A DNA stretch of 64,000 bases from Cucumis sativus (lineage: Eukaryota > Streptophyta > Magnoliopsida > Cucurbitales > Cucurbitaceae). The notes beneath the pieces were generated by a model that saw only the letters and a program-made list of their open reading frames with translations, searched no databases and was not told the DNA's origin. Positions 1,150-57,460 of this stretch are shown in pieces. How positions within the stretch are numbered: the first letter of the stretch is position 1; each line of letters starts with the position of its first letter. Location: assembly GCF_000004075.3 (NCBI RefSeq), contig NC_026660.2, forward strand, positions 20,215,498-20,279,497, in the 5' to 3' direction. A program made the translations under genes and the position numbers.

Positions 1150-3480
1150 GTCCATTGAAAAAACTTTCATAGATCACTTCAAGAAGATTTATACTATGAA
1201 TAAACCTATTAAATGGGTGATTGATTGAAAATCTCATTTGGGCACCCATTACAGATAGTCTCAAGGATCAACTTTGCCTCCCCTTTCAAGAGTCAGAAAT
1301 TCATTCAACTCTTAGATCTTTTGCAAACAACAAAACCCCTGGTCCAGATGGGTTTACTATTGAATTCCTAAAAAAACATTGGAAAATTCTGAAACAAGAC
1401 ATCAAGATTGTTTTTGTTGATTTCTTTCAAAAGGGGATCATAAATAATATTGTAAATGAGACTTACATTGCCCTTATTGCTAAGAAAGAAAAATGCTCCA
1501 AAGCCTTATACAACATACCTATTAGCCTTACAACAACCTTATACAAACTAATTGCAAAAACCATGACAGAAAGACTCAAGGTCACCCTCTCTCACACCAT
1601 ATCAGACCATCAGATGGCCTTTGTTAAAGAAAGGCAAATTACTGATGCCATTCTCATTGCCAATGAAGCCATTGATTACTGGAAAGTCAAGAAAACAAGG
1701 GGATTTGTGATCAAGCTGGATATCGCAAAGGCTTTCGACAAAATCAATTGGAGCTTTATAGATTATATGTTAATGAAAAAAAACTACTCTGGACAGAGTG
1801 GAGGAGGTGGATTCATTCGTGTATTAGCAATGTACATTACTCAATCCTCATCAATGGAAAACCCAGGGGTAAAATCAAACCTACTAGAGGCATACGACAA
1901 GGTGATCCACTTTCTCCTTTCATATTCGTACTTGCCATAGATTATTTCAGCAGGTTGATTCGACATGTTCAACAACAAGGTAAAATTAAAGGAGTCTGCT
2001 TCAATAATGAATTCAACCTCACACATCTGCTTCAATCTATCAAAGTCCACCATATCTCCCATAAATGTCGACAACTGCAGAACTGATGTTGTGTGTAATC
2101 TTTGGGGCCTAAAAAAACAGTACCTTCCAATTCCTTACCTTGGAATGGAAAAATATTGGAGTGATTTCTTATGGAAGAACAAAAATGAAGACAAGCTCAC
2201 CCACCTCCTTAGATGGTCCAAAGTCACTCTTCCTATTGAAAAATGTGGTCTTGGTATACATAAAATAGCAGATACCAACTTTTCCTTCTTATGCAAATGG
2301 CTCTGAAGATTCCATACTGAAGCAGATCCCCTCTGGAAAAAAATTATGACTGCTAAATATAATCAGTCCTTCATTGGAGAGCTGCCTGCATATGGAAAAT
2401 ATAGTTCTTTGAAAGCTCCTTGGAGAAATATTATCAAAGGTGTCGACTGGTATAATGCTCAGATCAAATGGACGGTAAACAATTGCGAAAATCTCTCCTT
2501 TTGGAAAGGAATTTGGTGTGAAATTAGTCCCATAAAAAGATATAAACCAAGGTTATTTGCCTTATCTACCATCCAAAATGGCTCCGTAAAAGACATTTGG
2601 AATTGCAACATTTTGGATTGGGACTTCAAACCAAGAAGACCCCTTCGAAATTGTGAACATCAGCAATGGAATGAAAACAAGCAACATTTTAAATTCCCAA
2701 ATGACATTAGAGGTATTGACTATTCCACTTGGAAATTGAACATTAATGGTAAATTCTCCGTTGCTTCTGTTAAGAAAGCCTTTTCTAGCTTGAACCAAAG
2801 AGATGATTTTAATATTGATGATAACACATTTTCTCAACTTTGGAAAACCAAAATCCCCAATAAATGTCGTTTTTTCATATGTTCTCTTTTACATTGTTGT
2901 ATTCACACTGCTAACATTCTTCAGAAAAAAGTTCCAACTCTCAATCTAAGTCCAAATTGGTGTTCTTTATGCAAAAGACACTCAGAGCAGATTGATCATA
3001 TTTTCATTGATTGTCATATTGCCAAAATTCTATGGAACAAGCTTGAAGGACTTCTGGGATGGAAAAACCAACAACAGAATGTTGTTTCCTTATGCTCAAT
3101 AAAACAACGCAACAAAAGGGATATCACCTTTTTTAATACTATAGCATCCGTGTTGTGGATCTTATGGTTGGAGAGAAATAATCGCATTTTCAAGGATAAG
3201 GAAAAATCTACTGTTGATCTCTGGGCAGACATCCTTTCTCTCTCGGGGCTGTGGGCTAGTAAATACCGTATGTTTGCAAATTATAGTGCTTTCTATATCA
3301 CTATCAATTTAAATGCTTTCTAACTTTTTATTGTGGGCTTAGCTCTAGCCCTTTAGCCTTTGGCACTGTAGTTTGGCTTTTGTCCCTGCATGATGAGGGT
3401 GCTAAGAAGGTGTCCACCTAGTGGAGATGTCCGGGTGCACTTACCCAACGTATCTTTTTCAAAAATAAATAAATAAATAA
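1150..3480 (+). mobile_element. 5'-truncated, frame-broken LINE (non-LTR retrotransposon)
   Basis: The translation shows the middle and end of a plant L1-like ORF2. The reverse transcriptase start (NNKTPGPDGFTIEFLKKHW, VIKLDIAKAFDKINW) is at 1221-1790. After a frameshift near 1780-1800 it continues with GIRQGDPLSPFIF. The segment that should carry the catalytic F/YADD box is missing: the frame jumps at about 2030-2090 from the RT core to the connection region. A stop near 2304 follows, then a long frame to 3323 ends in a zf-RVT domain (LWKTKIPNKCRFFICSLL, WCSLCKR...DHIFIDC) and a conserved WILWLERNNRIF tail. A 3' UTR of about 150 bp ends in an (AAAT)n run near 3462-3485, typical of plant LINE tails. 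The 5' end is ragged: a weak match (DHFKKIYT) reaches back to about 1170. The copy has no endonuclease and cannot be active. Confidence 0.9.
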
Positions 3481-17090: not shown

Positions 17091-17321
17091 CACACATTAT
17101 ATTAGTGTGCACAAACTACGTAAATGACCACATATCAAACTTTAATTCAATGGTCACCAGTGTAATTCACACATTATATTAGTGTGCACAAACTACGTAA
17201 ATGACCACATATCAAACTTTAATTCAATGGTCACCAGTGTCATTCACACATTATATTAGTATGCACAAACTACGTAAATGACCACATATCAAACTTTAAT
17301 TCAATGGTCACCAGTGTCATT
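17091..17321. repeat. Three head-to-tail copies of a 77-bp unit
   Basis: Copies start at 17091, 17168 and 17245 and are almost identical, so the array is recent. Each unit contains the palindrome tacgta and an inverted pair TGACCA ... TGGTCA separated by about 22 bases. It lies about 1.06 kb upstream of the permease start codon. Whether it is regulatory is unknown. Confidence 0.95.
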
Positions 17322-18376: not shown

Positions 18377-21300
18377 ATGAATTTACACTCCACCTTCATC
18401 TCTTCCACCTTATTATGCCCTAAAATCCAAATACAATGCCTGCAACTTCTTCCACGATCGCCATTGCCGTCGCCATGTTTAAGAACTAATCTACAGAACT
18501 TCCAAAGGAGCAAAAGATCAAATAGGTAATACGTCTGTCTCGCTTTGACGATGCTACTTTTTCCACTATTTAATCCACCATCCACCAATCTTGAGTTTCG
18601 CTTGGTGTTATAGATACCACCGTCGGTTGCTCTGCTTCGAGCAAAAAGAGGAAGGTCTACAATCTACAGAAGAATTGCAGCCGGTTTCGTCGTCTGAGAA
18701 GAAAGGAACTGTTGCTGGAGCTATGGCTTTTATTATTGGTACCAGTATTGGATCGGGGATTCTTGCAATTCCAGAGAAAGCGTCTCCGGCTGTAACTTTC
18801 TTTTTCTCTTCTAGTATCTCTCAGCTTTAGCGATTTGATTCAAGTTAGGTTGAAAATGGAGTCTCCGGAGAGCTTATTTTTGTTATCTTCGACGTTTAAT
18901 TCGTGGCAGGGATTTTTCCCCAGTTCGATATCGATAATAATATGTTGGGGGTTTCTTTTAGTAGAAGCACTGGTGCTTGTTGAGATTAGTGTGGTTCTGT
19001 GGAGGAGGAAGAAAAAGGAGAAGAAGGCCGAAGAGGGAGAGACGGGGATGGAGGTGATTTCAGTCAGAACTATGGCGCAGGAGACTCTGGGTGATTTTGG
19101 TGGAACCCTGGCCACTGTTACCTATGTTTTCTTAGGCTACACTTCCATGGTTGCCTATATTTCCAAGTCTGGAGAGATCCTTCTCCAATCATTTAATCTT
19201 CCATCTCCACTTTCAGGCTTCCTTTTCACGTTGTTTTTTTCTCTGCTAATCTCCGTCGGTAGGACCAGAGCCGTAGATCAAGTCAACCAATGGCTTACAG
19301 CTTGTATGATAGGTAACTTCAGGACTTGAACCAGTATTATGGTCTCTCTCCTTGGAGCAGTTCTAACTTTTGGGACACAATTTCAATTATAACATATCTG
19401 GACTTGAACTTGTTATTACACTTAAGTTTTGATGATGTACATAATGGTTCCAAATGTAGTACTAATCCTCTATCGATATGGGATTTTAGAAACAGTTTAA
19501 TAGACTCAAGAATGGAAAACTGGTTTGAAATCAACGTGCCAAATTACAAAAGAAGGGAAAAGAGAGATTCCTCATCCAAAGGAGTTACAATAAAGATTTC
19601 CATTTGAACAAAAGAGAGGTCATAGGATAATTGGAGAAAAAAGAATTCAATTTAGACCAAGAGAAGGAAAAATAAAGGACTTGTATAATAAAAAAAAGAA
19701 CCAATGAGTAGTTTCCTTTGGTTCAAACATCCATTGGTTTCTTTCATTCCAAATAAACCATTGAAAGACATTGGCAAAATTCTTGCTGCAAATATTTTTC
19801 ACAATTGCAGATAAAGATGATTTAGTAATTCTTGAATGTCTTTGGGCAACAGGTTTACTACTGGGAATTGAAGTGTTAGCAGTTCAGTTTGGAGGCTGGT
19901 CCATAATAGATGGGGGAGGAGACTGGAGGAAGGTCCCAACTACAATACCTGTCATTATATTTGCTTTGGTATATCATGATGTAATACCAGGTAAATTATA
20001 TTGATTTTTTTTTTGTTGCCATTACTTTGCTTCGATGATTTGTGAAAGTATAAAGCTATAGCCCTCACTAGGTTGGTCAAATCTTATATGTTGGCAGTTC
20101 TATGTGCTTATTTGGAAGGTGACCTTCCTCGCCTAAGAGTTTCAGTTTTGCTTGGTAGCATTATTCCCCTGCTAGCATTGCTTGTCTGGGATGCAATAGC
20201 CCTTGGCTTGTTAGGACAAGCAGATCAAGTAATTGACCCAGTTGAATTGCTCCTGAGGTAGTTCATTCCAGACCTTCAACATTTCATTGAGTAGCTCTAG
20301 GTAATGATATGCTAAAGTATCATCTCCTCAAGTTTCTGAAAGAAGTTAATGGTTTGATATTCAGTGTTAAATGGAGTGGAATTTCTTACATGGTAGAATG
20401 GTTCTCACTTCTTGCTGTTGGAACATCTATGCTGGGAACATTGCTAAGCTTCTCTTCATTTTTCAAGGAGCAACTCAGTAACATCTTTTCTGATTTGTCT
20501 ACAAGAGAGGCTTTGAAAGTAATTTCTTCACAGTCTCTGATTTAATGTTGTGTACAATCATGTCTTCTGTAGATTTATATGTTGGATATGTTGAAGTGCA
20601 AGAGGCAAAACTAATGTGCCACCATGTGTTCTTGGCTATGACAGGAACCACCGAAGTTCTGCTTAATGAAGCACTGGTGGGAAATGCATAAATTAGGCCT
20701 TACTGCCTTGGCAATTGCTGTTGGTCCCTCCCTTCTTGTCTCCACTACTAATCCTGATTCATTTTCTGCTGCTACAGATATTGCGGTAAGTAAACAAAAC
20801 CAGGTGCCTGCTGTTTTATGAACATCGGGTATGCATTTTGAAAGACATAAATCCTTGATACAAATGTAATTTCTTGCCTATTAACATTACTAAAATAAAA
20901 TATGTCTAAATCGGAATAGAGGCACAAAAGTAATGTTATCTTTAGTTTTTTCTTGATGCAAGACTGGTGTTAAGAAAAATGAAGAAATCCAAATTACCAA
21001 AACATTCTGAAAGATTAAAAACGAAAGGCATTTGTTAGTAGTGGGCTTTGGGTCATGTTGAAAGCCCAAGAGTAGTTGAGATTTACTTTGTTCTAATTTT
21101 TTATTATTTTAATTAAGCTCGTGTTGCCTAAAAATATTTTCTCCTTTGTACCTTATTATCTCAAGAAAGCAATAAAAAATATCAACATCGTGGTTTTTCA
21201 CCCTGTTCTAGGGTTTCCACGTAAGTTTGTGTTTGTTCTACATCTCTACTTTCAATAGCATTCATTTTCTCCCAAGTATTTTAGGAACTCGGAACCTCCC

Positions 21301-21838
21301 CTCAAAGAGATACCACTTAAGCCCAAAGTCATCAAAGATTAGCTTGCCTCTCCTAAAACCCAACTCTTCTGTTCAAAACGAACTCCCAGTTTATTACTTT
21401 ATTATCACCTGGCTATTATGTCCCAACAAAATCATATGACGTAAAAAAATTGTGTATAATATTTAACTTATTTCTATTCACATTTCAAAGTATCTCGATT
21501 ACATAATGATACAATCACTTAATTGATTTTCATCAAGTATATCAACCTTCGTGTCAGTATAATTGTTTGTGGATATCCTTTATTATGCAACAGAACTTCA
21601 GTGCTTGATCTTCTTGTTTCTCTGATGCTCTGAATGGAAACAGGGAGGATACTGCATGACAATGTTGTATGGAGTTCTCCCCCCAGCAATGGCATGGGCA
21701 ATGCACAGTAGGGAATCAGAGGAGACTGAATCCAAGGTGTTATCGAGAGAAAGGTCTGCACTACTTGGGCTAGGTTTATTTGCTTGTGGTATTGTTGTGG
21801 AACAAGTTATCCAGGATATTCTGAAATTGCAATGGTAG
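18377..21838 (+). CDS. Tryptophan/tyrosine permease family transporter, plastid-targeted
   Basis: Multi-spanning membrane protein of the bacterial TyrP/Mtr-related family that plants carry with a plastid presequence; probable amino-acid carrier, substrate unproven. Eight exons join in frame: 18377-18525, 18614-18791, 18910-19312, 19853-19990, 20098-20257, 20365-20518, 20645-20785, 21644-21838, giving 505 residues. I chose the ATG at 18377 because the conserved frame has no Met upstream of 18723. Exon 1 supplies a Ser/Leu/Arg-rich, acid-free leader that joins exactly in phase through an 88-bp intron (AG|A at 18614). The family's first helix is GAMAFIIGTSIGSGILAIP. Later conserved pieces are CWGFLLVEALVLVE, FLGYTSMVAYISKSGE, LLLGIEVLAVQFGGWS, ALVYHDVIP, LPRLRVSVLLGSIIPL and YGVLPPAMAWAM. 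An alternative acceptor at 19810 would insert a short out-of-family segment before exon 4. Confidence 0.9.
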
Positions 21839-23082
21839 CAAGGTAAAATGATATTTTATCTGAATTAGTTTTATTTTCTTAAATTTTTGCCAACTGTTTC
21901 TAAAGTCACATTCTGTTATGTTCTCCTCAAGGAGATGGTGAACCTATCGTTAGACGAGGATGAGATTTTGGTATTTTTTCTGTCTTTGTCAGATAATCAT
22001 AAAAAAATTAAAATATGTGTGCAATTTAGACAAAATTAATTAACTGAAAGTTACATAAATGTTCCAAATTTAAAAGATGCTTAATTTAAAACGCTTAGTG
22101 GTTTCTTCTTAGGATATGCAATCTACAGTTTTTGCTAAAGTGTTTGTTTTATTTATTGTTTTTTTTCCTTTGAAATACAGTACAGGTACAGTCTAGAATT
22201 GTTAGACAACTCTGCTCTTTGACTTTGATGAACTAAACTGTTTCTTCTCATCAATAACTCAGAAACTCGAAGAACAAAGAACTGAAAGAGGGTGCAAAAC
22301 AATGGAAGAAGAGAGTAACTCAAGTAAGTTAGTGTATAGAAGGAGTGGAAGACGAAGTCTCCTTTTATAGTTTGGAGGATGGAATAGTTATGATCAAATT
22401 CCTTTCATGCATCGATTTTGTGGGCAATTAATTCCCCCAAGCATAAAATTTGTTCAATGGCCTCTCATCCTAGATAAGAATGCTCTTCTTGTTAATTCAC
22501 TCTTTTTTTTAAAAAAAAAAAAGAAAAGAAAAAAGAAACAACTTTCATTTAGAAAAAATGAAGGTAAGCTCTTCCGATTAACTATTCCTTTACTTCCGTC
22601 CGTTTCTTTCTCTGTTGGACAATTTTAGAAGCAACCAAGGAAAAAAAGAAAAAGAAAAAAGAACATCCTTTTTGGCATTCTTTGTCCCTCAAAATTTCAT
22701 CTTACATGAGTTTGCTAAACACCTGGAAAAAAATTTCTTGTGAGGAAAAGTGGGCTATATGCCTATATCATAGAATTAGAATTATGAAAGTTTTTGCTGA
22801 TTGCAATCCTTGCTCTCTAATGATGATAACTTCAGTATTATGGCTCGATTCAGGCGGGAAATATTTGTCAAGGAAATGATTGTCTTTTCAGAGGTTTTGA
22901 TCTTGTATACTGCAATAGACTAATACATATGAAAGTTTCTCTTCACAAATTCTTAATAGAGGAAAACTATGCAACACCATACTTATGTGCAAATCTTATA
23001 TCCAGCAGAGTGAACTTGAGCGGAACTTGCTACAAACTTTAAAGGAAACGAGCTTGGTTTACAGAGAATCTAGAGATACATA

Positions 23083-23244
23083 TTATGGCAGGAATGCAGT
23101 GTCTGTTTGATAAATTGCAAACCCATGTAGCAAAAGTTGGGTCGAGTTATCAAGGGGAAGATCATAGAACGCCTCAGGCCTTGGATCAGAAAAATAGGAG
23201 AAAGAAGAGAAGAGAAAAGACAAGATGGTGCAGATGGGTGCCAT
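23083..23244 (-). CDS. Unrecognised 53-residue protein, copy A
   Basis: Single-exon ORF from ATG at 23244 to TAA at 23083. I do not recognise the family. The product starts with a hydrophobic stretch (MAPICTILSFLFSSFSYFSD), then DPRPEAFYDLPLD, and ends near AIYQTDTAF. The N-terminus could be a signal peptide or membrane anchor. A partner ORF at 25608-25769 has the same length with no indel, and 35 of 53 residues are identical. Hand comparison of codons gives about 12 synonymous and 18 amino-acid-changing codon differences, which suggests mild constraint but is not decisive. A TATA box lies 52 bases upstream of the ATG, giving a plausible very short 5' UTR. No cysteine-rich or known peptide-hormone motif is visible. 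Confidence 0.5.
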   Translation of the reverse strand: MAPICTILSFLFSSFSYFSDPRPEAFYDLPLDNSTQLLLHGFAIYQTDTAFLP

Positions 23245-23295
23245 TTTTTCTTAACAAAAGTGGTGTAAGTTAATGCAGTCGCTGGAGTGGGTGAG

Positions 23296-23303
23296 TTTAT
23301 ATA
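23296..23303 (-). promoter_or_regulatory. TATA box of small ORF copy A
   Basis: TATATAAA on the minus strand, 52 bases before the ATG at 23244. The surrounding upstream sequence (to about 23520) is strongly similar to the upstream region of copy B, including the stretch aaccatgactatgtttcact read on the minus strand. Confidence 0.55.
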
Positions 23304-23850
23304 GAGCTGAAAGAGATTGAAGCTTGCTGAAATATCTAGTCATAAAGCTTCCTGAAGGGTTACTTCCTTAAAACTCTTGGGTCCTATTCCCTGACACCAA
23401 AAAGCAGGAAGAATTATATTTTGTGTTTGGAAGGAGTTTGATGCAGTGCAATTATGCAGGCGTGTCTTTGAATTCCAACCTCAAGTGAAACATAGTCATG
23501 GTTGCTTGTATTTGAATATTTTGGGATTTTTTAGGAAAAAAATGAAGGAAAAAAGATGGATAACAACAAACAATAAAGGAAGGAGAAACTTGACACTGGG
23601 ACCAGTCATGTCGGAGATTTTTTGACTCCTCTAGTTCGTTGTTGAGTGAAAGGCTGAATAAAGAATCAAATGCCGGAAGCAGGTTGTGGGATGATCAGCC
23701 AATTGAAGGTAATTTTTGTTTTTAAGTCTAAATTATGTATTTTTCTCTTCTAGCTTACTACGTGCTTTGTCACTCTCTTTTCATTTATCTGTCTTCTGTG
23801 AATCAATGTGTGCTCTGAAGTGTCCGGTAACTTATGACAAGAATAAAATT

Positions 23851-25247
23851 TTCTTTTGTTAAAAAGGGATTAATATTTTTTTTTGTACTAAGTTTTGAGT
23901 TTCCAAATGCTTCACTTTTAATCTTTCAAGTTTCAAAATGTTGAATTTTAACCGTTCTTATTTGTTAATTTAGAAGAATTATAGTTTATTAAGTTTCATT
24001 ATTTTTATCACTATTAAAATTAAACTTAAACTTAAATTAAATTAATGTCATTAAGTGTTAAGTGAAAAATTAAAGTTTAAAGTGTAAATCTTGAAATTCA
24101 GGTGTCAAATTAACAGAACTCAATGGCTAAAAGTGTAACATTTTGAAACTTAGAAGCCAAATAGAAACTAGACCTAGAACCTAGGATCAAAAGGGTATTC
24201 TCAAATAAATTAAAGAAAAAACTTTGATATTTAAATGAACGTTCGAAAGATTTTAAGTTTTCGATGTAATCTCCATTATTAATTGGTTATTGAAATTTCA
24301 ATTTTGAATAAAAGAGGTTGTTGAATTTCAACAAAAACTAAAGATATTGTATTCAAAACCAAAGATCAATCAGTTTTAAAATTGTAAACACATTCATTTG
24401 ATGATGTGGAGAACTTTTTTGGGATATTTGGACTTAAAGAACCAAAGACTCCGCTTCTCTTTTGACAACCACCATAGATTGGATTCTTTTCTCCCCTCTT
24501 TTGTAAATTTCATATATCTATAGAATTCTCTCTCACAAAGAGACGTTCAATAGAATCTTAAAATTCTATGGCATTAATTGAATTTAGTGTTGGTCATGTT
24601 GAGTTGATTGTTGGAACTTTCCAATCGACTGCCTTCCAATTGCGATTGGTTTTCTTTATCAATTATTTCAATTAGCATTAATAGTTTATTAGCCAAATGA
24701 TTGAAGGTTAGAATCTCTATCACTTCACATCTTTAAAAGAAAAAATGCAACATATAAAAAGGACGCTTCTGAACAATAACGGATGTCACATTAAAATTTT
24801 CACGTGAAAATTCATTTTTTGTATTACAAGGAAATGAAAAGAAGACTAGGAGAGAGATGACCCGGCCAGTGAAATAATAAGGCTGGGCAATCGGATATGT
24901 TAGCAAGCCCAATTGCCAAAGTCCCATTAACTAGTTCCCATTCAAATACATGAGTACACCAAGCCCAAGTTCTGATCTGAATGTAGAACACTTGGGTCTT
25001 GAAAAAAAAAGGGAAGTTTTGATATATGAAGTTTGAGCTTAGTGTCTATTTAGTCTCTAACATCTAAGGAATAGTTCTAAAGGATTTTTAAGTTAATTTG
25101 ATCGTTTCTAGTCTAACAGAAAAAACGATGTCTAGTGTTGAGGTGATGAATTATAGGTATATATGTATATATATATGTTCTTTTTAGATTGTGAATATCA
25201 CATCGATGAGGCGGCAAATTCTTTGAGAATGGGGTCGATACCACATT
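23851..25247. other. Spacer between the duplicated blocks
   Basis: AT-rich. Bases 24560-24690 (tgcgattggttttctttatc, tcaattatttcaattagc) resemble 17400-17560, and 24830-24940 (ggctgggc..., caagcccaat) resembles 18050-18200 in front of the permease. Bases 24690-24730 (gaaggttagaatctctatca) look like the B-box part of a decayed SINE. No gene seen. Confidence 0.45.
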
Positions 25248-25607
25248 CCTTATCTTCATCAATTTTGTGAGCAATTTAGGCCACCCTGGGCATCAAAGTC
25301 GTTCAGTGGCCTCTCATAATTAAATAAGAACGTTTTTTCTTCCTTCTTTTATTCTATACCAGGAAAAACAGGCTATGTCATAGATTTAGAACTATAAAAG
25401 TTTGAGCTGATTATATTACATTTACAATCTTTGCATTTCTCATGTTGGAAGTTTTTGAAATTGAACTCCAGTACCACAATATCACAAGTGCACATGATTA
25501 ACAGAAGGGAACTGTGAAATGACCATTACTTATCTGCTGTCTTCATCTTCAACAGAAATCTTGAGCAGACTTTGGAGAAGACTAACAGTTTGATTTGTAT
25601 TAGCAAA

Positions 25608-25769
25608 TTATAACACAATTGCAGTATCTGTGTGGAAAATAGCATACCCGATGAGCGACAGCTGTGCCGAGTGTTCGAGAGGGAGACCATAGAATGCCTC
25701 AGGCCAAGGATCAGATAAAAAGGATAGAGAAGACAACAGAAAAGACAAGATGGTGGAGATGGGAGCCAT
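25608..25769 (-). CDS. Unrecognised 53-residue protein, copy B
   Basis: Single-exon ORF from ATG at 25769 to TAA at 25608, the counterpart of 23083-23244. The N-terminus is MAPISTILSFLLSSLSFLSD, followed by DPWPEAFYGLPLE and AIFHTDTAIVL at the end. Changes between copies are mostly conservative in the hydrophobic part (F/L, Y/F) and freer in the middle. An in-frame Met at 25841 exists, but it lies about 10 bases from the TATA box, before any likely transcription start, so I use 25769, which matches copy A. Function unknown: it may be a secreted or membrane micropeptide, or a chance ORF in a conserved non-coding transcript. Confidence 0.5.
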   Translation of the reverse strand: MAPISTILSFLLSSLSFLSDPWPEAFYGLPLEHSAQLSLIGYAIFHTDTAIVL

Positions 25770-25850
25770 TTCTTTTTCTCTCCAAATCCTGTAAGAAATA
25801 CACTTGTCTCGCTTATTCTTTACCCCTTCATCGAACAACATGAGTTCTTT

Positions 25851-25857
25851 TTATATA
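25851..25857 (-). promoter_or_regulatory. TATA box of small ORF copy B
   Basis: TATATAA on the minus strand, 82 bases before the ATG at 25769, in a stretch that aligns with the TATA region of copy A. The upstream 150 bases are similar in both copies. Confidence 0.5.
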
Positions 25858-26115
25858 TTTAGCCATAAGGCTTCCTGTAGAGTTACTTTACTTTAATCTC
25901 TGGGTCCCTATGCCCTGACCCAGAAATCAAAAGGGACAAAAATTGTGAGTAGTGGAATATGAATGATGTAATGTAACTATGTAGGCGTGCCTTTGAATTC
26001 TAAAAACAAGTGAAACATAGTCATGGTTGTTGCTTATAGTTAAATATTTTCAAATTTGTGAGGAAGAATACCAAAAAAAGAACCACAAGAAACAATAAAG
26101 GAAAGAGAACAACCA

Positions 26116-26304
26116 TCGTGAGTTGGCCTGATGGTACATGAAGGTCATGAGTTTTATAGGACTTCGAGAAAATGAGTTCAATTCATGTTGTTCACCTACT
26201 TAAATTTTATGTCTTACGTATTTCTTTGATCTAAAAATGTTTTACAGCTAGATGAGTTGTTTTATAAGATTAGTCAAAATGCATGCAAGCTGATTCAGGC
26301 ACTC
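26116..26304 (+). mobile_element. tRNA-derived SINE, Au-like
   Basis: The element starts with an A-box-like gtgagttggcctgatggt and has a B-box-like gagttcaattcat about 50 bases on. It ends with ttataagattagtcaaaatg and caagctgattcaggcactca, which matches the 3' half of the plant Au SINE consensus as I remember it. It is flanked by a 7-bp direct repeat (acaacca at 26109-26115 and 26305-26311). It is absent from the otherwise aligned copy A, which confirms the insertion boundaries. Confidence 0.75.
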
Positions 26305-26660
26305 ACAACCACTGTCAAAGAGAAAAAAGTAAGAAAGAAACACCAACAGTAGCAAAGAAAAGAAGAAAAGGAAAGTAAAGGGAGATTGGTAAAGGACCAG
26401 ACTTGACAGAAGAGTTTGGAAATTGGAATCCTATGGTTCATTGTCGAGTGTAAGGCTTAATAAAGAGTAAAAATTAGAAGCTTATGTGATGGTGAGCCAA
26501 TGAAGGTCATCTTTGCTTTTAAGCCTGAACTATGCATTTTTGCTTTTTTAGTATATTAGGTGCTTTTTTCATTCTTGTTTCTTTGTTTTGGCATTTGTGA
26601 ATGAATTTTGTGTTTAAGTGTGAGGTTACTTTTGACTTATATCAAGAAATAGCATAAACT

Positions 26661-27719: not shown

Positions 27720-30700
27720 TCACACATGTGAGCTGCTTCTAAATGAACCAAGAGCTTTAACAGCACCTGCTCTCAAGATGAATTGATGGTAGAAAGCTGC
27801 AATGGCTGCTCCAAGAAATGGTCCAACCCAAAATACCCACTGCAAAACAATAAAGACCCATAAAAAAATTAGACACATCACATTGTAAACAAACTTCAAT
27901 AATTTAGTAAATTTGAGTTATCAATCTTGTAATCAACATTTCTTTTTTTGAAATGTGAATGTAAACAAATAAGGACTAACATGGTTATTCCAAGTCTTTT
28001 GGTCATTTAAAATAACGGCAGATCCCAAGCTTCTAGCCGGGTTGATTCCAGTGCCTGTGATTGGAATTGTAGCCAAATGAACCATGAAAACTGCAAATCC
28101 AATTGGAAGTGGAGCCAAAACCTTCAACCAAAGAGTGGAATATAAGATACATTATTAACCAACAGACTTCTTAGTTACTAACATATACTATATACTAAAT
28201 GTCATTGAGTTATAATTGTTTTGGCAAAATATTTGCTGGGAAGGAAGTTAAAACAATTAAGGAAAAGTAAAGTATGTGTATGCATGTGAAACCAAACAAA
28301 ACAAAGTTGATAACTTTGATAAAAGGATTTTTCATTTTTAAATTTTTGTAAAAGTAAGGTCAGAAATAGGCATTTAGGGTAGGAAGTTGGTGCCTAACAC
28401 ATGAACCCACTTTGTAATTCTTTCAATGAAAAGAAACTTAGGTATACCATTTAAAAAGATGGAAAGCAAAGAAAGGTCATTATGGCATATAGGTAGAGAA
28501 AATATTTTCTTGGAAGGAATGTAGTTTTCCTAAGAAACAAACAAAAAAGTTGGGTGATTCTCAAATCCACTTCCTAATGCCAAGCTATATTCACTAACTT
28601 GGAAATATTACCTAAAAAAAATATAGAGAATTTGAGTAACTAGAATAACAATAAAATAATAATAAAAAAATGATAAAAAATAGACCATTTAACAAAAAAA
28701 AAAAAATTAAATGTAACGAATTTTGTCTTTTAATTATTTTGTTTCATAGAGAGTGTAAATAGTTTGTCAATTTTTTTTTTCTATTTTTGGTAGTTAGTGT
28801 CTTAAAGTATTGTTCTATTTTTTGCTCTTATTGTCGAATGTATTTAATTATTTGTGTAATAGATTTTCTTTTGTCTACTATAGGTCGATGAATAAGTGAG
28901 TGATATATTAATCGCAAAATTGAAAGTTTGTTTTAAACATTATTCAACTTATTAATTTTTATATTTGGTTATTTACTTTTCTACTTATGGATTTTTTCAT
29001 AAATATAACACAACTAAAATATTTACACTATGTAAAATAATTTTGAAAAAAGAAAAAGCTCGTGAAATACCAAAAATGCCATAATCAACCTACGATTAAT
29101 TGGTCATGCATGTACTATAGACTAAACAGTGATTTAAATTATGACATGATCGTGTAGTTCATTTTAAACGATGTGGAAAAATGTTTCAAATTTAAACTAT
29201 CGAATAATAAGCTCTAAATAATGGCAAGAAAACTTAAAAAATAATTGTTAGTATAATATAATCCAAACAATCATTGGATCATATACACGATCGTTTATGT
29301 CAGAATAAACTATCATGTAGTGAAATAATAGACATTAAATGATTGTATTGACCATGATAAACGATTGTATTGACTATGATAAACGATCATGTTGGTTATG
29401 GTAAACGATCGTGTAGTACAATATAAATGATCGTGAAAAACTTTAAACCTAACAATCATATAATACAATATACAAAATGGTTTAGATTTCAGTATATAAC
29501 CATTTAGAAATGAAATGGTACATAGTCGAAGATGATAAAAATGAAAAGGAGATTGAAACGATCGAAGATAGAATAAATAGCGAATAAGAAGAAAAGCAAG
29601 TATCAAACTCGTCACTCAATATTTAAAATCAATCAGAACCTAATACGAAACTTATGAAAAAATAATCAGGCTTCACGTGCATTTCTTACTTTATTATATG
29701 TACCATAAATGGAGTTTTGTTAGATTAATGTAAATTAAGATGCTACGGCTTATCTGCTAAAAAAATAAGAGAAATACAACAAAAATGAAATGTTGTTTTA
29801 AAAGGAGAGAGATTGGTTAAGGTGTGTGTACCGGAACATGGGAATCTCTGGCGTTTCGTTTAGGGTCGGTGGCGGAGAAGACGGTGTACACCAACACAAA
29901 ACTCCCAACAATCTCCGCCGCCAGTCCAGTGCCGATGCTGTACTCATCGGAAACCCCATTAGCCCCGCCGCCGTGCTTCTCGAAGTGGGCCTTCTGGAAC
30001 GCCTTGACAATCCCAACTCCACTGATCGCCCCCAAACATTGGGCCACCATGTACATCACGGCCCGCACAAGTGACACCTTTCGCCCCAACAGAAGCCCAA
30101 ATGTCACTGCTGGGTTTATGTGGCCCCCTGCACAATCTCCGCGGTTAACCGTTTCTAAAACTATTGTTGATAATAAAATTCATGCACGTATTCACCAAAA
30201 TATTATTAAAATTTTAGGTTCTATTAATTAATTTTTATAAACACAAATAATAGAAGTTATATTGATATCTACCGTAAATAAAATTTAAACTTTATTATAT
30301 TTTATAAATGTTTTGATTTATTATACTACATTTCAGAATGTTTCAAATAAATGTCTACGAAAATACTTTGTCAAATAAACCTCGATAAAAATAGTAACAA
30401 TTTAGTTTACTTTAGAATAATTAATAAGCCGTTGCGACTGAGAATTAGTTTACTATCTTAGCTTTCTTTTCATTCATTTTTCAAGAAAGAACACGTAAGT
30501 ATTATTTTTAATAAATAAGTAAATAATAATAATAATAAAAAAGCGCGAAATGGAATTTGGTTTGTTTGGAAGCTAAGAAAATGAGAGAAAATTTTAAATT
30601 TTCTTTAACTTGAAGACGAAGGAAGAGAGGAAGAAGAACAACAACCTGAAATTCCAGCAGTACAGTAAACAAGAACGAAGATCATTCCTCCAAAAGCCCA

Positions 30701-30919
30701 AGCAATTCCCAGAATTCCAACTCCTCCACAAGAATCCACATTCTTCTTCCCCATACCATGCGTTTCCGCTTTGTACCCGATCACCGTCAACACCGTCACA
30801 TACAGGAAAAGCAGAGTCGCCATGAACTCCGCAATCAGAGCTCTATAGAAAGACCATTTCCTAATCTCCACGCCGTCTATCAGCGGCACCGGTGGCGGAT
30901 CCTGGTAGTCCTTCGCCAT
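27720..30919 (-). CDS. PIP2: Plasma-membrane aquaporin, PIP2 subgroup
   Basis: Water channel of the plasma membrane (MIP family). Four exons: 30919-30646, 30127-29832, 28121-27981, 27839-27720; 276 residues. I start at MAKDYQ because PIP2 proteins have this short N-terminus; an in-frame Met at 30988 would add an unusual hydrophobic extension. Both pore signatures are present, [11 protein letters not shown] and [13 protein letters not shown], with PIP hallmarks [31 protein letters not shown] and [14 protein letters not shown]; the His and Arg of the aromatic/arginine filter are those of a water-selective PIP. The C-terminal FRSSSHV holds the serines usually phosphorylated in PIP2 gating and trafficking. 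The short N-terminus, as opposed to the longer PIP1 one, decides the subgroup. All junctions are in phase and the gene looks functional. It is divergent from the mannanase gene. Confidence 0.96.
29341..29435. repeat. 22-bp minisatellite in PIP2 intron 2
   Basis: Four head-to-tail units of exactly 22 bp (starts 29341, 29363, 29385, 29407), each beginning gattgt or gatcrtg and mostly ending ataaac, followed by a partial fifth. Divergence rises along the array. Confidence 0.85.
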
Positions 30920-31560
30920 AAACACACAGAAAATTGAAACCAAAACCAAAGCCCTAGAAGAGACTTTGAATAAAGAAATGTGGTGCAATTTCGCGAAGCG
31001 AAGAGCGGCATTTAATGAAGAATAAATTGAAGGAAAAGAAGAGAAAAGCAGCAGTGATTTTCAGCGGCTCCGCCTGAGTTGGGCACCACTGCCTATCCAC
31101 TTGCCATTGCCTTTGGTTGCTTCCGTACCTTTGTCGCTCGTTCCTTCTGACCTACTCAGAACAGTGCCTTCACTGTGCATTCCACTTACTACAGTAACGA
31201 CAAATTCCTTTTCATGCTTCAAATAAATAATCAATGGCGTTGGTAACCTTTTCAACTCTTTTTCCTCTCTGTATGTACTTACCAGTTTAATAGATGGACG
31301 TAGCTTAGAAGTGATAGCATTTGCATCTTTACTCTTACGGCCATTGCTATTTCTGAAACTGAAAGATTAAAACATAGATGGGATTATCAATATCTAATTT
31401 TATCTTGCCTTCAAAGATTTGGAACTGTTTAGTTCTTTCTTGAAATTATCTGTTGCGTCTAATGTCTCTGTAGTTGGAGATTTGTGTGTGTATATATATA
31501 TATAGATTGAGAAATGATAGTCCAAATTTGTGATAGATTTCTCAGAGAGAAGTCAAAACA
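30920..31560. promoter_or_regulatory. Shared divergent promoter region, PIP2 / mannanase
   Basis: 641 bases separate the two start codons. A strong TATA stretch (tatatatatatata) lies at 31491-31504, 57 bases before the mannanase ATG. On the PIP2 side I see no clear TATA box. Confidence 0.5.
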
Positions 31561-34714: not shown

Positions 34715-36536
34715 GTTCCTTTGGCCTTTTTTTCAACGTTTTGGGATGAAACCAAAAAACTAAGTGTGAGGCATTATGGTTCGGCTTTTGTGGGCAAAAT
34801 TTTTTAATATTACTCAAAATGAGACCACCTAGTAGTTAGATGTGAACTTTTGAGAACTTTGATATTGTTCTAAGTTGGATAGTTTCTTTCTAGGCTATAA
34901 CATTAGCCCTTTTTCCAACGTTTTGAGACGAAATAAAAAAACTGAGGTATCAGCGTTTGACTTTTGTGGGCAAAAAGTTTTAATATTACTCAAAATGAGA
35001 ACACCGATTAGTTAGATGTGAACTTACGATACCTTTAACATTGTTCTAAGTTAGGTAGTTTCTTTCTAGGCCATATCATTAGTCTTTTTTTCAAGGTTTT
35101 GGGATGGAAAAAAAAAGAAGACAAAGTCTGGGACATCACCGTTTAACTTTTGTGGGCAAATTTTTTTAATATTACTTTAAATGAAACCACCTAATAGTTA
35201 GATGTGAACTTTCGAGACCTTTGACATTGTTCTAAGTTGGGTAGTTTCTTTCAAAGACCATAGCATTGGCCACTTTTTCAACGTTTTGGAACAGAACCAA
35301 AAAACTGAGACTGGGCATCACCGTTCGACTTTTGTGGGCAAAAAACTTTAATATTACTAAAAATGAGACCACTTAGTAATTAGAGGTGAACTTTCGAAAC
35401 CTTTAACATCGTTCTAGGTAGGGTAGTTTCTTTCTAGGCCATAACATTGACCATGATTTCAACGTTTTGGAAAATAACAAAATAAATGAGAATGGGACAT
35501 CACTGTTCGGCTTTTATGGGTAAAAAACTTTAATATGACTCAAAATGAAACCACCTAGTAGTCAAATGTGAACTTTCGGGACCTTTGACAGTTTTCTAAG
35601 TTGGGTAGTTTCATTTTAAGCCATAGCATTGACCCATTTTTAAAATTTTTGGGACGGAACCAAAAAACTGAGTCTAGGGCATCACCGTTCGGCTTTTGTG
35701 AGCAAAAAACTTTAATATCGCTCAAAATGAGACCTCCCAGTGGTCAGATGTGAACTTTCGAGACCTTTGACACTTTTCTAAGTCAGGTCGTTCCTTTCTA
35801 GGCCATAGCATTGGCCCTTTCTTCGACGTTTTGGGACGGAACCAAAAAACTGAGTCTGGGACATCACCATTTGGCTTTTGTGGGCAAAAAACTTTAATAT
35901 CGCTCAAAACGAGACCACCTAGTGGTCAGATGTGAACTTTTGAGACCTTTGACACTTTTCTAAGTCGGGTCGTTCTTTTCTAGGCCATAGCATTGGTCAT
36001 TTCTTCGACGTTTTGGGACGGAACCAAAAAACCGAGTCTGGGGCATCATCGTTCGGTTTTTGTGAGCAAAAAACTTTAATATGACTCAAAATGAAACCAC
36101 CTAGTAGTCAGATGTGAACTTTCGAGACCTTTGACACTGTTCTAAGTCGGGTCGTTCCTTTCTAGGCCATAGCATTGGCCCTTTCTTCGACGTTTTGGGA
36201 CGGAACCAAAAAATTGAGTCTGGGGCATCACCGTTCAACTTTTGTGGGAAAAAAACTTTAATATCGTTTAAAACGAGACCACCCAGTGGTCAGATGTGAA
36301 CTTTCGAGACTTTTGACACTGTTCTAAGTGAGGTCGTTCCTTTCTAGGCCATAGCATTGGCCATTTCTTCGACGTTTTGGGACGGAACCAAAAAACAAAG
36401 TTTGGGGCATCACCGTTCGGCTTTTGTGGGCAAAATACTTTAATATCGCTCAAAACGAGACCACCTAGTGGTCAGATGTGAACTTTCGAGACCTTTGACA
36501 CTGTTCTGAGTCGGGTCGTTCCTTTCTAGGCCATTG
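34715..36536. repeat. 182-bp minisatellite, about ten copies
   Basis: Head-to-tail array with a period close to 182 bp. Each unit carries ttcgacgttttgggacgga, ggcatcaccgttcggctttt, gtgggcaaaaaactttaata, and agatgtgaactttcgagacc with small variations. The left units (34.7-35.6 kb) have diverged more than those at 35.7-36.5 kb, which are nearly identical, so amplification was most recent at the right end. The right end abuts the DUF1985 fragment without a gap. Minus-strand ORFs of 61 residues recur because each unit is open in one frame; I do not count them as genes. Confidence 0.95.
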
Positions 36537-54800: not shown

Positions 54801-57460
54801 AATAAATAGATGTAAATGGCAGAACGTGGTAAGAAAAGAAGGTAATTTTTAAGTACCTTCCATTTTGAAGCTTCTGGAAATCAATATTGTCAAGAGAAGA
54901 GATTGTAGATGGAGCAGCTGCAATAAGATCATGAACACAAGTATTGTTTAGATGGCAAAGCTATAAAATTTTAGTAATTGAAAAACATAAACAAAAAAAT
55001 ATGAAGTGGCACCATATACAACCGAAGTCAAACAAATAATAAGGATTGAAAGAAAAATAACTCAGCAGAAAATGCAAGCAAACTTTATGCATGAAAGGAA
55101 TCAAGCAAAAGAAAATCCTAAAGGATGTCTAGCATGGTGGTTTTACGCTTGATGTCAACCTGGATAGTGAGAGTCTAGAACAGACCATTGCAGGGAACAG
55201 GTCCTCGAATAATAAAATTTATCTGGGGTGTGGAAAAGGTGCGCAACTGCATGGATGAGATGCTAGTCCATGCAACCTTCCCTCCATCAAAGGCAGGCAA
55301 GTTAAAAGGGGCAAAACAGTCCCTTCGATATTGGTTGCTGAACTGCCTAGACTGTTGGTAGCACTGTGATACATTAATATTTTGGAAAACCTTCCCTGAA
55401 ATTGCTGCATAAAAATTTACAATTTATAGACTTAGTATTCATAGAATATTAATCCATCATGTTAGTAGTCATATTGTTCCTGAAGTACCACTTCAGGCCA
55501 TTGAGCATTTTATTTAGGCTAAAAACACAGAGAAAACTTTAATCTTCATTAGTTTGGCACCGCACCACTACTGTGTGGGTCGTGAACAATTAACTTCTGC
55601 AACAATTGAATAATTTTATAGCAACTTGTTACATACCTCTCTTCCTTTTTCTTCGTGCTTGTTCAATCAGTACTTAAACCAAAAGCTCAATCTAATCGAT
55701 TACACTAAATTTAATCATACCAACACTTCTCGTCAATTGTGGACTTGAAATCTCGTAGAAGCTCCAAAAACTAGCAATCAACATTGATTGAAGATGAAAA
55801 GACATTACAAGGGTTCGGACAGGGGACATTTTGCTCTAATATTATATTAAATTACCACTCAACCCAAAAGCTTAAGATGATAGGTTTTTTTTTTTTGATA
55901 AGAGACAAATATATTCATATAACAGAACAGAACATCCTAAGGGCGAGGGACAAGAGGGCCCTCCCCGGAAGAAGCTAGGGAACTAAGAAATGATGGCCTT
56001 CCAATTGTTGAAAATCATAGAAAGGCTATAATTACAAAAGTGTTTGGTGTAATTCGTACTCCACCAAGAGGCTGTGTGCTGAACCATAGTCCAAAAAGAA
56101 TCAAAAGAATTAAATCTATCTTAAAAAATTCTGCTATTCCTTTCTTTCCAAATGCTCCACAAAAGGGAACGTGTCGCACATTTCCATAAGATGTTTCCTT
56201 TAGGGCTGTAACCTCTAATATTAAGACCTTCAATCATCCAACTATCAATCTTACTAGGAAGACAAAGCTCCAAGTCAAAAATACCAAACAGAGTGTTCCA
56301 AGCTTTTTTTGTGAAGGGACAATGTAGAAATAAATGATCCAAGGTTTCCTCATCTTTAGAGCATAGGCAACACATCGAGGGGCTAAGCAATGTGTTCTGA
56401 ATTTTTTTTTGTAGTTTCTCATGGGTGTTGAGGCTTCTGTAAGCAAGCGACGATAAGAAAAACTTCACCTTCTTCGGAATTTTATTCTTCCAGATATGAC
56501 GAATCAAGGGAACAGCAATGGAGGGGGATTCTTCCAGATAAGATGATAGGTTATGGTACATTCATTTATCCCAATTCTTCAAAATCATACAAGACAGAAG
56601 TCTTGCTCTTGCTCTTCTGTGTTAGTTATGTTGCCCATGGCTAGAAATGAGTGAGCCATGAATACGGTCTAAATTATTCTAATCTCCTTGACCAGAGGGA
56701 AGATTGAAGCTTAACATCTACATACTGTAAAAATATGGTCTGGCAAAAGAGTGAAACTCTGATAGTCATTTGACTCGTTTTTTCTGTTGAAATTTTACTA
56801 GTCTTTTTTGTATTCAATCTTCCATTAGTTTGGAAATAAACTTGAAAGTGTCATAGTTTGAGAAATCTGCAGTGATGCAGGGTTGATTGATGGGTCACGA
56901 CAGTTAAAAGACCTGATAAATACATTAAAGAGAATTTCCCATGTGTCGCCAACATAGTGGGAAGATTGAATAAACATAACTAACAAGTTGAGGCAAAGGC
57001 ATCTACTCCATCCCTCAGGGTTGAAAATTTGTTGTACTAAAAAAAACTTAAAACCCATGCTAAGTCATTTCTTCCTGAAGCTCACTCCAGTCTAATACTC
57101 CAACACAATTTCAAAATTCAATCGAAGGAAACTTGACAAACGAACGAAGGAACAAGAAATGAAATCAAAAGCTTGAGCGCACTCTTCACTTTCACATAGT
57201 ATTACATCAATATAACTATTGTCAACGAAGACGTCACATAACAACAGATTTATCCCCTATTCGATTGCCAGTAATTGCATAGTAGTTCCCAGAAGAAGGA
57301 ACCGCATCGGAGGGAAATGAATTTTCAACATATGGCGAAATGATACAATAATGCCAAATTCAGATTGTCCGGAAAAATGGAATATTAGAATATGGAATTG
57401 AACTTAAATTGTAAATCGAAGAACTTAAGAGACTGCAATGAAATGAAGTGTACCTGCCAT
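48884..57460 (-). CDS. Phosphoglucomutase / phosphoglucosamine mutase family protein
   Basis: Alpha-D-phosphohexomutase superfamily, closest by eye to Arabidopsis At5g17530/At1g70820; substrate not established. Seventeen coding exons: 57460-57454, 54917-54857, 54587-54404, 54126-54074, 53559-53471, 52581-52342, 52245-52181, 51682-51622, 51538-51421, 51312-51231, 51150-51078, 51006-50945, 50255-50160, 50005-49851, 49767-49671, 49154-49077, 48991-48884; 542 residues. The active serine is in SIMITASHLPFNRNGFK, the metal loop is DTDVDR and the sugar loop ETSGHGALKENHWLDDGAY. The phosphate loop is RVSGFGGWFLLR, where bacterial enzymes have SGTEPxxR. Exon 1 codes only 7 bases (ATGGCAG), supported by an in-frame TAG 24 bases upstream and perfect phase with exon 2. 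This leaves MAAAPSTISSLDNIDFQKLQ before the core, with no clear transit peptide, so this form may be cytosolic, or a further 5' exon or start exists. Intron 1 is about 2.5 kb and holds a LINE fragment. Confidence 0.9.
55874..56552 (-). mobile_element. 5'-truncated LINE fragment with 13-bp target-site duplication
   Basis: Inside intron 1 of the mutase gene and on the same strand as it. The coding remnant reads IRHIWKNKIPKKVKFFLSSL, the zf-RVT zinc knuckle CCLCSKDEETLDHLFLHCPF, WKCATRSLLWSIWKERNSRI, a TAA in place of Lys, and then MVQHTASWWSTNYTKHFC to a stop at about 55985. A poly(A) tail (T run at 55885-55896 on the + strand) follows a short 3' UTR. The sequence aagatgataggtt occurs exactly at 55874-55886 and 56540-56552, a 13-bp target-site duplication that fixes both ends. 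It differs clearly in sequence from the LINE at 1.15-3.48 kb. Confidence 0.92.

Follow-up and report, generated by a model that had tools for sequence, protein, structure and literature searches.

A tandem pair of 53-codon open reading frames in cucumber DNA with signs of selection on the encoded peptide

Two short open reading frames (ORFs) of similar sequence on the minus strand of cucumber DNA raise the question of whether they are small protein-coding genes or accidents of a duplication. They lie in the window, the whole 64,000-nucleotide stretch analysed here (positions 20,215,498-20,279,497 of contig 6 in a 226.6 Mb assembly of 88 contigs), in which all coordinates below are counted. ORF reading, alignment and omega tests define copy 1 (P0001) at 23083-23244 and copy 2 (P0002) at 25608-25769, both on the minus strand and both consisting of 53 codons and a stop. 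On contig 6 these are positions 20,238,580-20,238,741 and 20,241,105-20,241,266. The peptides are identical at 35 of 53 residues and changed at 18, with no indel, and in an alignment of the wider region 125 of the 162 ORF bases are identical, with no gap event. The invariant core of both peptides is DP.PEAFY.LPL, and the tail contains TDTA; in the last 12 codons (FAIYQTDTAFLP in one copy and YAIFHTDTAIVL in the other) the substitutions are mostly between like residues. The start codons stand in AAAAATGGC and AGAAATGGC, in keeping with what is usual around plant start codons. Each copy is thus a complete ORF of fewer than 100 codons with its own start and stop, as is asked of a plant coding small ORF. 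Coordinates, strand, equal length and identity agree exactly with the initial annotation, and hydropathy and peptide alignment bear out the hydrophobic start and shared motifs that it described.

The ORF pair belongs to an old tandem duplication, about 1.4 kb in length. The outer limits of the two units are 22395-23838 for copy 1 (similar blocks at 22395-22480, 22763-22802, 23079-23587, and 23621-23838) and 25242-26636 for copy 2 (blocks at 25242-25330, 25373-25412, 25604-26109, and 26423-26636). To the left of the pair lies a plus-strand gene for a tryptophan/tyrosine permease, whose ORFs at 18796-19326 and 20046-20258 carry Pfam domain PF03222, and to the right an aquaporin gene on the minus strand, with PF00230 in 30605-31057 and, by eye, more exon-like ORFs to about 27.7 kb. 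The main similarity block stops 4 bases past the stop codon, and in the other direction it takes in a conserved upstream region, 23245-23587 in copy 1 and 25770-26109 in copy 2 (minus strand). An upstream similarity of 150 bases had been proposed; the similarity is real, but the length was underestimated, since it reaches to about 23587 and 26109 and is followed by the separate block 23621-23838/26423-26636. In the same alignment, 223 of 346 bases upstream of the ORFs and 107 of 206 downstream are identical, and each flank contains 6 gap events, in line with the earlier description of indel-rich DNA around the ORFs. The ORF itself has none, where about 2.8 would be expected at the upstream rate and about 4.7 at the downstream rate; the absence of gaps is suggestive and not decisive.

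The differences between the copies mostly preserve the protein, which points to selection against peptide change. The 37 base differences within the ORF fall 8, 8, and 21 on codon positions 1, 2, and 3. By the counting method dN is 0.186 and dS 0.642, so that omega comes to 0.29; Fisher's test gives p 0.0018, and the fraction of bootstrap replicates that reach an omega of 1 or more is 0.002. The codon-model likelihood gives an omega of 0.277 (2dL 9.74, p 0.0018 against omega = 1); all selection tests rest on one paralogue pair of 53 codons. Under the likelihood model, codons 21-53 by themselves give an omega of 0.265 (p 0.0041); for codons 1-20 by themselves omega is not different from 1 (p 0.14). 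The codon-based dN/dS proposed in the initial annotation, run here on the pair, therefore comes to 0.29 by counting and 0.28 by likelihood. Its idea of a duplicated small coding gene is supported by these values and by the end of similarity at the stop codon, and its reading of constraint holds, but the constraint is stronger than the "mild" of that annotation (omega 0.28-0.29, p 0.0018); similarly, a hand count of about 12 synonymous and 18 replacement changes is replaced by 17.5 and 19.5, the figure of 18 being that of the changed residues. Purifying selection on the peptide, a mark of plant coding small ORFs, is thus seen in this one paralogue pair.

As a control, omega was computed for the remaining five frames of this alignment and came to 2.10, 1.96, 1.86, 0.45, and 3.08, with stops in four of the five. 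The value of 0.45 belongs to the antisense frame that shares the wobble positions and has 4 and 1 stops in the two copies. Weaker tests agree: when the substitutions were permuted, so few residue changes arose with P 0.017, and so high a BLOSUM score with P 0.010 (0.016 conditional on no stop); the mirrored antisense frame scored P 0.0042 in the latter, yet it contains stops in both copies. Neutral duplicates were also simulated, matched to the pair in composition, length, and approximate divergence, and only 7 of 3000 (0.23%) retained a shared, intact and aligned ORF that was free of indels and had 50 aa or more. Given the third-position excess, the omega values, the block end at the stop codon, and the simulations, the pair very probably represents real small protein-coding genes.

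One alternative, which we consider improbable, is a non-coding origin: what was duplicated in tandem long ago would be regulatory DNA or a long non-coding RNA gene, and the shared ORF would be accidental. It would account for the good conservation of the upstream region, which is not a long ORF, and it finds some support in the other reading frames. A second sense frame is likewise open in both copies, as composition alone would allow, and 82% of shuffled sequences contain some ORF of at least 50 aa, so the mere openness of a frame says little. Nor does codon usage single out the frame: copy 1 scores +2.4 bits and copy 2 +6.5 bits versus +15.2 for an antisense frame, relative to a reference of a few window ORFs that are partly intronic. 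Against an accidental ORF stand the low omega in this one frame, the absence of indels from an ORF at whose stop codon similarity ends, and the rarity of such an ORF among the neutral simulations. A search of 21-28 kb against Rfam at E <= 1 adds to this, as it returned a single match far under the gathering score (22.1 versus 120.3).

Equally improbable, in our view, is that the ORF belongs to a longer, spliced minus-strand gene, either as one of its exons or as a conserved-peptide upstream ORF (CPuORF). An acceptor-like TTTCTTACAG just ahead of the copy 2 ORF, a G|GT within the ORF of both copies in the alignment, the conserved upstream region, and the further similar blocks downstream at 22395-22480 and 22763-22802 are all in its favor. 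Like CPuORFs, the pair has a short ORF whose peptide is conserved beyond the DNA. However, a CPuORF has a larger main ORF behind it, in whose 5' leader it lies, and no large main ORF follows the pair on the same strand: in the unspliced reading, the longest downstream minus-strand ATG ORFs have 58 aa (21519-21695) for copy 1 and 64 aa (24733-24927) for copy 2, and by eye there is no similar ORF pair among the downstream ones. In addition, coding-type change runs on past the GT to the stop codon, which is common to both copies.

The reading to which we incline, with some reserve, is a tandem pair of intact small protein-coding genes, each with a single uninterrupted ORF that encodes one peptide of 53 residues. 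Each copy would have a short promoter of its own, and translation would begin at the first ATG. The initial annotation had ascribed to each ORF its own TATA box, and a putative box TATATAAA is indeed found upstream of each, at 23296-23303 in copy 1 (minus strand, 52 bases from the ATG) and at 25850-25857 in copy 2 (minus strand, 81 bases from the ATG); their positions, however, are not homologous. In the alignment the copy 1 box faces AAGGGGTAAA in copy 2, and the copy 2 box faces a non-TATA stretch in copy 1. With 16 TATAWA sites on the minus strand of 21-29 kb, about 0.13 are expected by chance per 70-base interval. Given the non-homologous positions, the boxes arose separately or are chance. 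If both putative boxes are used, they would constitute differing promoters and would allow different expression of the copies. At the other end, AAUAAA is present downstream of copy 2 only. A scan for bacterial-type promoters and terminators, irrelevant to plant DNA, gave 14 and 2 versus 17.1 and 2.1 expected.

The best conserved upstream part contains a doubtful 15-codon mini-ORF, at 23452-23499 in copy 1 (MTMFHLRLEFKDTPA) and 25977-26024 in copy 2 (MTMFHLFLEFKGTPT), both on the minus strand. The two products share the pattern MTMFHL.LEFK.TP. with 12 of 15 residues the same, and their stop codons differ (TAA and TAG). As the block has no clear third-position excess (3, 5, and 7 differences), the mini-ORF may be just conserved promoter DNA. 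The strongest energies from local folding of 22.2-26.9 kb in 160-base segments were -44.1 and -43.5 kcal/mol, with z values from mononucleotide shuffles of -3.03 and -1.71, and the lowest z among the 16 segments listed was -3.86, at 26360-26519. The energy of -44.1 (z -3.03) belongs to the minus strand of 25800-25959, upstream of copy 2, which carries the palindrome CTGGGTC...GACCCAG. The aligned stretch of copy 1 has this palindrome in imperfect form, and no strong hairpin appears at the matching minus-strand place of copy 1 among the segments listed.

What might the peptides do? In both copies, the first 19 or so residues are hydrophobic and free of charged residues, and the best 15-residue N-terminal window has a mean Kyte-Doolittle value of 1.77 in copy 1 and 1.93 in copy 2, with no basic residue before it. 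A typical signal peptide has a basic residue ahead of the hydrophobic stretch, and this leader would be unusual in that respect, while the small-residue rule of signal peptidase would be satisfied by the SxS at residues 14 and 16 that both copies have. The remainder is acidic, with a net charge of -4 in each copy, and the single cysteine is C5 of copy 1, so neither product is a cysteine-rich peptide. If the ORFs are coding, the leader may send the product along the secretory pathway or anchor it in a membrane, a prediction to which we give an even chance. The working part would be what follows the leader, acidic and poor in cysteine, where the core DP.PEAFY.LPL and the TDTA of the tail are found. 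Most likely the product would bind a partner protein, as a short peptide that is either secreted or held in a membrane; granted such a route, a ligand-like role is conceivable, and here too we see the arguments as balanced.

Only these two copies were found in the 226.6 Mb genome, whether it was searched with each peptide at the protein level, with the motif pattern, or at the DNA level with the ORF and the 341-base upstream region. The DNA search with 23600-23860 returned its self-match only and missed the 72%-identical block at 26423-26636; it is insensitive at this divergence, so a diverged non-coding copy elsewhere is possible. No motif of a known peptide family was detected in either protein by Pfam at E <= 10, and no relative of P0002 among PDB sequences, so that the family, unrecognised in the initial annotation, has no match within Pfam, PDB (P0002), and this one genome. 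Viral contigs contributed 599 pattern stretches and no relative. Among 54 pattern stretches from bacterial and archaeal genomes, one, from a soil MAG, matched part of the peptide (residues 18-41, 50% identity) and was taken as chance. The idea that the ORFs are remnants of a transposable element or of the neighboring permease or aquaporin gene may largely be set aside: transposon-like ORFs are seen by eye elsewhere in the window, but either protein or the motif matches only two places in the genome, Pfam returned nothing for either, and the intact ORFs contrast with their decayed flanks.

Most small secreted peptide precursors are longer than the 53 residues encoded here, and we know of no CLE, CEP, PSK, or RALF family motif matched by the pair. 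The peptides resemble small secreted peptides of the cysteine-poor hormone precursor kind (CLE, CEP, PSK, RALF), as outlined in passages of PMC11756074, in being short and in having a hydrophobic N-terminus and a compact conserved core; the string PEAFY does not occur in those passages. Plant genomes contain many overlooked small ORFs, and the first surveys are cited in the relevant parts of PMC9975389. Coding small ORFs in plant intergenic DNA were recognised there by their expression or by purifying selection (Hanada et al. 2007, 2013, as cited in PMC9975389). The pair is like these in being shorter than 100 aa, intergenic, below the usual annotation cut-offs, and marked by purifying selection; unlike the small ORFs of Hanada et al. 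as presented in those parts of PMC9975389, it is known from the sequence of one old tandem pair. Overlooked plant small ORFs as a class are already well known, and because plant genomes hold many of them, the pair is at most another example of a familiar kind. An annotation of the pair may already exist in cucumber databases. Among the papers listed by the literature searches (supplements outside their scope), none names the peptide, and six peptide strings of the pair occur in none of 5.39 million papers. We regard as rather speculative the idea that these are the first members of an undescribed plant signaling-peptide family with the core DP.PEAFY.LPL, in which two copies would have been under selection since the old duplication and divergent promoters would lead to different expression. 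If the reading as a pair of small protein-coding genes is true, a crop genome has a functional peptide gene pair that length cut-offs could drop from annotation, and with two copies and one short conserved core the system would be easily tested by double knockout or synthetic peptide.

Several repeats and mobile-element traces were observed elsewhere in the window. Positions 1221-3323 and 56121-56561 contain, by eye, a putative reverse transcriptase ORF of a non-LTR retrotransposon and its C-terminal part, respectively. A 77-base unit is repeated three times in tandem at 17091-17321 with 98% matches and is evidently recent. Ten tandem copies of a 182-base unit, with 84% matches, occupy 34721-36534; this unit has at least 319 matches genome-wide, many of them in short arrays on several contigs, and it is a dispersed satellite-like repeat beside a gene.
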